From positions 2,294,001 to 2,358,000 of the forward strand of contig JALBUN010000023.1 in assembly GCA_025174535.1 (NCBI GenBank): a stretch of DNA of 64,000 nt. The letters run 5' to 3'. Positions 56,381-58,251 of the stretch are shown here, piece after piece. Position 1 is the first letter of the stretch, and each line of letters starts with the position of its first letter. Below the pieces are notes generated by a model. It did not search any database. It was not told the DNA's origin and was given only the letters and a program-made list of their open reading frames with translations. A program made the position numbers and the translations under genes. This DNA is from Cantharellus purpuraceus. Taxonomy: Eukaryota > Basidiomycota > Agaricomycetes > Cantharellales > Hydnaceae.

Positions 56381-58251
56381 CTAGTAACTTTTTGGTTTCC
56401 CTGCCGTCAGGACTTCGACGCCGGTTTCCGTGATCCTACACTAGAGGTGAGGAATTATACAATTGAGTATGGAATATAAACATCATACAAAAGTGTCTCT
56501 TCGAATTGTGCGCTGAAGCTACCATCCATTGTTGTAGCGGTCCAGTTATCTGGCCAATGTTCCTCTTGCGCCCTTTTGCCCAGGTTGATCATCTTCCGGG
56601 AGTGCAAGAGTAAGTAAAAACACGAAATGAAACCACAGAGACTTATTTACAGGTTCGATGGTAAATGTCTAGGAAGCAAATGATGAGAATCAGTTTCCCG
56701 TTTTTTATTTTATTTTCTTGCTTATTTGACGTACCATTCCCGCTTTCATAGTCCCGACAGCTTTATTTTTTGCATAATGTGGTACATTTGGTGCGGTATG
56801 GAATAGCTGATTGATTCCGTGACCAGTGTATGTCCGCACAGAGCAACAACCATTCGCAACTGCAATAGGCTCGCTATACCACGGTAGGAATAACTAATGA
56901 GCCATGAAAAGCATAAGCCGTAACATTCTGTCACTGACATCACTTTACCGATCTCCCGGAAGAGGGCTCCTGGCTTGCAGATCTTAATAGCCTCGTCAAG
57001 ACAATTTCGAGATGTCCTGATCAATAGAGCATTTTCTTCGGATATTTTTCCAACTGGGTAGGTCTCGTTCAAATCTCCGTGAAAACCTGCCCGAATATAA
57101 GACAATAACTATAAACTCAACTAACGCTCCTCACCGTCATAGTACAACGTGACATCTGCGAATTCTTAGCCCGTGGAGAAATAGGAAGGAACTAAAAACC
57201 GTTACCTAAATTCACAATATCACCCTCGAGTAGCTTCCGTTGGTCGGGTATCCCATGACAAACGACTTCGTTCACAGATCTATACAAAGCATCAATAAAA
57301 ATCTTCAACCAGAAACAGTGATCGTACGTGCAAAGGGATTTTGGAAACTCTCTGTAGTTGAGAGGCGAAGGGTAAGCCCCACGCTTTATTATTTCCTCGT
57401 GAACAATAGAGTCGAGAAAGTCCGTGGTGACTCCAGGCTTAACATGTTGCGCCGCGATATCAAGAACCTCTCTAGCCAGCTAGGTGTGGAACGTCAGTAA
57501 GCCTATAGAAATAAAGCATTCCTCTTAATAGCATACACGGCAAACTACTCGCATCTTTTCTTGCTCCGCTTTGTTCAATATTCGGGGTGGCTGACCCGAA
57601 CGCAGTCTTTCAGCCGTGGGTAAACCTGGAAATTAAACGGAAAGAAAAACCATCAACTTTCGAGCTCACATTGAGAGGACCCCATCCATAAAATGTTTCA
57701 TACCATCTTCTGCATAGTCGGGTCGTGGTATTTCTAGAGGCACGTGGCGGCGAGGAGAAAGAGGATAAACAGGTCGAAGATCTCCTGTGAATCTAAACCC
57801 CGGGAAAGGGTTAAAAGTGCCATCTTGAACGCCGGTCAGAATGATATTCATAATAATTGGTACCCGAGTTGAGCTGTACCTCTATTGATTGATGGGTCAT
57901 TTAAAAGAGGCTCCCTGGGCCGTGCAAAGTCGTGAATTATCTTGTGGGTTTTCTTGGAGATCCAGGATGTCAATTCATCGCATCCCTTCTTAAAGCACAA
58001 CATACCCCTACCATCGTTTCAGCGACAATCTATAGTGATGTAACATGGGAAGACTCACATCCAGCCTTGAAACATTCCTGCCCACAGAAGAAAGACCCTT
58101 GTATCCCGATCCTAATATGGAGAAGCATCATCGAGATACACTGAGATCCATACATGGAGAGGACTTACTTGTTACATGTCGGACATTCTAGACGTGAAGG
58201 CGGATTGCCGTTGAGGCACTGGCTGCTCTGGCATGTTATCACGTTGGTCAT
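56381..58251 (-). CDS. MAP1: Methionine aminopeptidase 1 (Map1), with N-terminal zinc fingers
   Basis: Removes initiator Met from nascent proteins at the ribosome. Fourteen exons: 58169-58251, 58059-58111, 58006-58007 (2 nt), 57880-57952, 57704-57823, 57537-57625, 57328-57479, 57206-57279, 57135-57155 (21 nt), 56939-57086, 56735-56873, 56651-56668 (18 nt), 56489-56592 and 56381-56435; sum 1,131 nt, 376 aa, close to human and yeast Map1. The zinc fingers are complete: C-x4-C (CQSSQC), [18 protein letters not shown] and KTHKIIHD. Metal ligands appear in [19 protein letters not shown], the His in [10 protein letters not shown], and Glu in TFTIEP and QFEETLL. The 2-nt exon completes the conserved Trp codon. 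Confidence 0.93.
58006..58007 (-). other. MAP1: Candidate 2-nt microexon of MAP1
   Basis: On the minus strand the bases read ...ATGGTAG|GG|GTATGT.... The flanking introns are 58008-58058 (51 nt, GTGAGT...TAG) and 57953-58005 (53 nt, GTATGT...AAG), each of typical local size. T|GG forms the Trp of ECFKAGW-KTHK, conserved in Map1 zinc fingers. Removing the whole 106 nt as one intron would give GGA TAA, a stop. Confidence 0.7.

Follow-up and report, generated by a model that had tools for sequence, protein, structure and literature searches.

A predicted two-nucleotide exon in the methionine aminopeptidase 1 gene of Cantharellus purpuraceus

In 2026, an exon of 1 nt, backed by RNA reads, was described in CYP621A of Fusarium; the available text of that report terms it the first in a fungal gene and cites exons of 2-5 bp in Arabidopsis, Drosophila and human (PMC12940212). 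For the 1-nt exon of Arabidopsis APC11, described in 2015, the accessible portions of the paper suggest intron definition together with recursive, successive removal of the introns, and cite a potato mini-exon whose second intron leaves first (PMC4674806). Exons of 1 nt in both APC11 and VPS55 are found across land plants, with pervasive misannotation, according to the available part of a further study (PMC8831610), and microexons are mentioned as an aligner setting in what is available of a paper on Cryptococcus (PMC3990503). An earlier note on the DNA studied here had held that recognition of an exon this small would be new; the APC11 proposal and the Fusarium exon with its reads, as given in the available text of PMC4674806 and PMC12940212, had both already anticipated it. 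The literature matches listed, which leave out most subscription papers, include no description of a 2-nt exon, either in MAP1 or in any basidiomycete.

Here, we describe a candidate 2-nt exon in the gene for methionine aminopeptidase 1 (MAP1), located in a 64,000-nt stretch of Cantharellus purpuraceus DNA (hereafter, the window). On the basis of the sequence, the reading frame, a solution that is unique among the choices enumerated and the tryptophan present in relatives, we regard the exon as very probably real, and we infer from these observations how the transcript of this species is joined.

The MAP1 gene and its predicted two-base exon

The gene spans 1,871 nt, and the spliced model of 1,131 nt encodes 376 amino acids plus a stop codon. 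The features of the locus that are discussed below are as follows, with the basis of each assignment in parentheses.

56381..58251, minus strand: MAP1 (methionine aminopeptidase 1), whole gene; 14 exons, 376 aa, with zf-C6H2 (PF15801) and peptidase M24 (PF00557) domains
58169..58251, minus strand: exon 1, 83 nt, ATG at 58251 (alignment with the start of Gautieria P0001)
58112..58168, minus strand: intron 1, 57 nt (gene model)
58059..58111, minus strand: exon 2, 53 nt, ending in ...FKAG plus T, phase 1 (gene model)
58008..58058, minus strand: intron A, 51 nt, GTGAGT...TAG (sequence, gene model, splice-site ranks)
58006..58007, minus strand: predicted exon 3, 2 nt (GG), second and third bases of the Trp codon (sequence, enumeration, relatives)
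57953..58005, minus strand: intron B, 53 nt, GTATGT...TTGAC...AAG (sequence, gene model, splice-site ranks)
57880..57952, minus strand: exon 4, 73 nt, starting with KTHK, phase 0 (gene model)
57135..57155, minus strand: exon 9, 21 nt, encoding DVTLYYD, the second small exon (gene model)
56651..56668, minus strand: exon 12, 18 nt, encoding TFTIEP, the third small exon (gene model)

The product combines an M24 domain with an N-terminal zf-C6H2 finger, the arrangement of a type 1 methionine aminopeptidase. It scores 157.4 bits against PF00557 (peptidase M24; cut-off 23) and, with the 2-nt exon included, 64.9 bits against PF15801 (zf-C6H2; cut-off 30), and its finger aligns with that of human MetAP1, QECFKGSWATHK. 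The nearest proteins among the matches listed are those of Gautieria morchelliformis (Gomphales; 92% identity) and Ramaria rubella (85%). A second Gautieria Map1, P0003, is 85% identical to that of the window, and its model has CFKAAYSKKSHK at the junction. Exactly the seven residues encoded by exon 9, no more and no fewer, are absent from the models P0002 (Ramaria rubella) and P0003; judging from the sequences, exon 9 has probably been overlooked by annotation in these two as well.

A search of the contigs of the window's genome found no second finger-bearing Map1. The other Map1 match outside the window, on C45, is weaker (46% identity over query residues 154-307) and has no finger match. 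A search of IMG/VR for fungal Map1 DNA returned 29 loci (L017-L045) at 33-51% identity, none of them informative on the exon. These loci are relatives of the M24 part; none matches query residues before 88, and no zinc finger was detected in them.

The tryptophan codon of the finger is split by both introns, as T^GG in phase 1 and as TGG^ in phase 0, and the predicted joined string at the junction is (end of exon 2)-T-GG-AAAACCCAC. The two bases are flanked by a canonical AG and a canonical GT (TAG/GG/GT). Introns A and B measure 51 and 53 nt, and the other 11 introns of the gene measure 48-78 nt; a single 106-nt intron would be longer than all 11 of these and would lead to ...FKAG-stop. If the GG exon is skipped, or if either intron or the pair is retained, a stop follows at most 13 codons past the final complete codon of exon 2. 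The earlier note had described this layout as a 51-nt intron, GG and a 53-nt intron within a gene of 14 exons summing to 1,131 nt, and had foreseen the stop that one 106-nt intron would cause; the coordinates (58058-58008, 58007-58006 and 58005-57953), the sum and the stop were all recovered exactly. Canonical AG and GT flanks, introns of normal size and the dependence of both the frame and a conserved residue on the two bases would place this predicted exon with the ultra-small (1-2 nt) constitutive exons; its inclusion in the mature mRNA has indirect support from the relatives described below. Because tryptophan has only one codon, both exon bases are invariant unless the tryptophan is lost.

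Splice sites between 58111 and 57880 were ranked with weight matrices derived from a small set, 11 introns that all belong to MAP1 itself. The donor of B ranks first and that of A second among the 11 GT dinucleotides; among the 13 AG dinucleotides, the acceptor of B again ranks first, and that of A is tied for sixth, a middling position. Intron B has a branch site, TTGAC, 17 nt from its end, and the branch-site match of intron A is weak (CTGAA at 11 nt).

Two other classes of element were considered for this stretch. A zero-nucleotide recursive splice site is an AG/GT without any exonic base, and here two coding bases lie between the AG and the GT. An introner-type repeated intron was likewise rejected: the 106 nt match only themselves in the genome (G000), in a search that passes over very common words.

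Splice products of the same interval were enumerated under two schemes, with 30 nt as the minimum intron length: no intron or a single one of GT/GC-AG or AT-AC type, or a pair of GT-AG introns. The enumeration yielded 97 distinct full-length products, and only the one made through the 2-nt exon contains CFKxxWxxHK, the tryptophan that the earlier note had expected from this route. Single GC-AG and AT-AC introns also give full-length products in this enumeration, none of which contains CFKxxWxxHK. Scored on a profile made only from 28 transcript-like relatives (defined below), the 2-nt-exon product is the best of those enumerated at 722.4 bits; the runner-up reaches 708.9. When 200,000 stretches of 106 nt were drawn at random from both strands of the window, 421 (0.2%, real site included) contained AG-GG-GT with at least 45 nt on both flanks; dinucleotide shuffling of the 106 nt produced this arrangement 58 times in 20,000 (0.3%). 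Both figures are those obtained before a tryptophan in the right place is demanded.

Tryptophan and model errors in relatives

Two protein searches, each giving the best 120 of about 8,000 proteins scored, provided 140 distinct relatives, which are the closest rather than all. By source, 30 are transcript-like and 109 genome-annotated; the remaining EukProt entry (P0024, 52% identity), in which the tryptophan is present, was left out of the counts. The transcript-like proteins come from JGI or 'lgn' contigs, taken to be transcript assemblies from their source and from how long the contigs are: 11 are below 1.9 kb, 8 are of 2.0-2.8 kb, 7 of 3.4-5.0 kb and 4 of 8-16.5 kb, and for 11 of the 30 the contig is shorter than the 1,871-nt span of MAP1.

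Counted with the pattern CF[KR]..W..H[KRQ], tryptophan stands at the correct spacing in 30/30 transcript-like and 48/109 genome-annotated proteins among the matches listed; in the first search alone, the figures are 28/28 and 43/91. Since the protein database takes intact open reading frames only, the 30/30 is silent on how often the exon is missed. A stricter pattern gives 26/28 and 37/91, which are undercounts as WKKHK, WKVHK and similar forms escape it, and a cruder one gives 72/120. P0101 (WVGHK) passes the wider pattern, and its V may be read-through. In the first search, indels fall at the 2-nt-exon junction in 38 of the 91 annotated models and in none of the 28 transcript-like proteins. 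No other MAP1 junction has them in more than 14 of the 91 or 6 of the 28, and the lowest figure is 0 in both groups, the two most indel-rich of these junctions having 9 and 14 annotated and 3 and 6 transcript-like cases.

The finger tryptophan is thus absent from 61 of the 109 genome-annotated models, and the residues found in its place show recurrent patterns. Cysteine stands directly after CFKxx in 44 of the 61, which fits read-through of a T/GT donor; among the 48 Trp-less models of the first search, 25 have CE or CK, which would fit T/GTGAG and T/GTAA. Glutamine immediately before KxHK (15 of the 61) fits read-through of a CAG/AAR acceptor, and both marks occur together in 9. In P0075 (Cyclocybe aegerita) and P0131 (Moniliophthora roreri), W and V are followed by foreign residues, in keeping with GG/GT read-through. 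Taken jointly, the models seem to preserve traces of the donor on the left, of the acceptor on the right and of the two-base exon between them. Seventeen of the 61 do not begin with C. At least six models (P0027, P0063, P0077, P0082, P0111 and P0136) have C for W with the length unchanged and do not carry both read-through marks; P0111 is from Cantharellales and P0136 from Hymenochaetales, and P0132 (Sistotremastrales) has the Q mark only.

The clearest comparison pairs the transcript-like P0090 with P0099, a model of Tricholoma matsutake; the two share 368 identical residues (99.7% outside gaps) and differ at the 2-nt-exon junction, W in the former versus CECL in the latter. This pair has two more 2-residue indels elsewhere, and P0090 lies on the longest contig of the transcript-like set.

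Trp-less models occur in Agaricales, Boletales, Polyporales and Russulales and also in Hysterangiales, Cantharellales, Hymenochaetales, Gloeophyllales, Sistotremastrales and others, with one example per order looked up. Many published models of related mushrooms are wrong at this junction, probably because the software overlooked the same tiny exon, and the 2-nt-exon arrangement is probably ancestral in Agaricomycetes, as judged from proteins rather than from DNA. Annotated gene sets may contain too few exons of this size. The model of Schizophyllum commune (P0069) reads CEFPLRRWKNHK, with W directly before KNHK after an apparent donor read-through; intron B could have been lost in this species, with GG fused to exon 4.

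Alternative readings and a proposed order of splicing

Three other explanations of the junction have to be weighed. One 92-nt intron from a donor at 58044 to the acceptor at 57953 would give CESSH-KTHK, four residues longer and with no tryptophan; the earlier note had named this product correctly, but had put the donor at 58040, whereas the first base of its GT is 58044. Such an intron is in frame, has canonical GT-AG ends and yields a full-length product whose finger, at 49.7 bits, is still above the Pfam cut-off of 30, and 44 of the 61 Trp-less models of relatives likewise start with C. Nevertheless, its donor scores 2.4 versus 6.0 and 6.4 for the two donors of the 2-nt-exon route, its product reaches 708.6 bits on the profile (13.8 worse than the 2-nt-exon product) and its finger is 15.2 bits worse (49.7 versus 64.9). 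All 30 transcript-like relatives among the matches listed have the tryptophan instead, and the T. matsutake pair (W versus CECL) also speaks against it. We consider the 92-nt intron highly improbable.

A stwintron (nested twin intron) would look similar, as it too comprises a pair of adjoining short introns, about 100 nt in total, that are excised one after the other; several papers, in their available text, describe such introns in fungi. In a stwintron, one intron lies inside a splice signal (donor, branch site or acceptor) of the other and there is no exon between them. At this locus, removal of A leaves TGG/GTATGT, with the donor of B whole on its own side, and removal of B leaves TAG/GGAAAACC, with the acceptor of A intact. 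Neither a donor nor an acceptor is interrupted, and GG stays in the coding sequence, which makes a stwintron barely credible. Just as hard to credit is a decaying or mis-sequenced locus that has truly lost its tryptophan, given that the remaining 13 exons join flawlessly into a protein of 376 aa with 92% identity to that of Gautieria, that this is the only finger-bearing Map1 found in the genome and that the same junction is disturbed in the models of many other genomes.

In the reading that we hold to be very probable, the 2-nt exon is constitutive and set between two ordinary short GT-AG introns that lie two bases apart. With recognition taking place across each intron (intron definition), the GG exon itself would require no signals; owing to their ordinary lengths and strong donors, A and B should each be recognisable in this way. 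Two bases offer too little room for U1 at the donor of B and the 3' splice-site factors at the acceptor of A together. With just these two bases between the acceptor end of A and the donor end of B, the introns would have to be removed singly. Whichever is removed first, GG would then form the edge of a normal exon, either closing exon 2 or opening exon 4. We expect B to be spliced first and then A, an order derived from site strength, since both acceptor and branch site are stronger in B than in A. Mis-spliced forms might be subject to nonsense-mediated decay, since every failure tested gives a stop within 13 codons.

Given that removal has to be successive and that every failure tested gives a stop, the exon might further be read as an Agaricomycetes-wide splicing checkpoint, i.e. 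an on/off valve for the amount of enzyme that has been kept for that reason. Such a valve would act, for example, through nonsense-mediated decay whenever splicing is slow. We regard this role as unlikely.

Significance and comparison with described tiny exons

The novelty lies in the MAP1 exon itself, in how widely it appears to occur and in the faulty annotation; tiny exons as a kind and the stepwise mechanism are already in print. With MAP1, a coding exon of 2 nt would be added in a housekeeping enzyme; the breakage of gene models suggests that it is old and common to many mushroom orders. If orthologs without A, B or both exist, they would form a natural series on how the spliceosome handles introns two bases apart. 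There is also a practical warning, as the 61 of 109 annotated Map1 models without the tryptophan, among the matches listed, would misdirect work on the structure or the evolution of the finger. The same count qualifies the statement in the earlier note that exons this small are possible but very rare: possible they are, and their rarity has to be treated with care when the tryptophan is missed in so many annotated relatives.

Among the described systems, as far as the available texts of the reports go, the 1-nt exons of plant APC11 and VPS55 resemble the MAP1 exon in being smaller than a codon and missed by annotation, and they are long conserved, as the MAP1 exon apparently is, with its age inferred from proteins (PMC4674806, PMC8831610). 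They differ in occurring in plants, in measuring 1 nt and in their proof by RT-PCR and RNA-seq, and VPS55 is alternatively spliced in some plants. The stwintrons of ascomycetes, in the accessible literature, share two adjacent short U2-type introns and their consecutive excision; there one intron interrupts the splice signal of the other, whereas in MAP1 the donors and acceptors are whole and two coding bases remain.

The exon of Fusarium CYP621A differs, according to the available text of its report, in being 1 nt long, in belonging to Ascomycota, where it occurs in 20 Fusarium orthologs, in lying in a P450 of unknown function and in being confirmed by RNA. That of MAP1, in contrast, is 2 nt long, lies in a housekeeping enzyme of Basidiomycota, apparently extends over many orders and is predicted here from sequence. 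In both cases, in what is available of the Fusarium report, a fungal nuclear coding exon of minimal size is set between two short introns within a conserved motif, and the public models are wrong at the exon, with one named exception in Fusarium (PMC12940212). Likewise, both exons consist of G only, stand between AG and GT and were found through the misfit of the flanking phases, again as far as the accessible portions of that report describe it.
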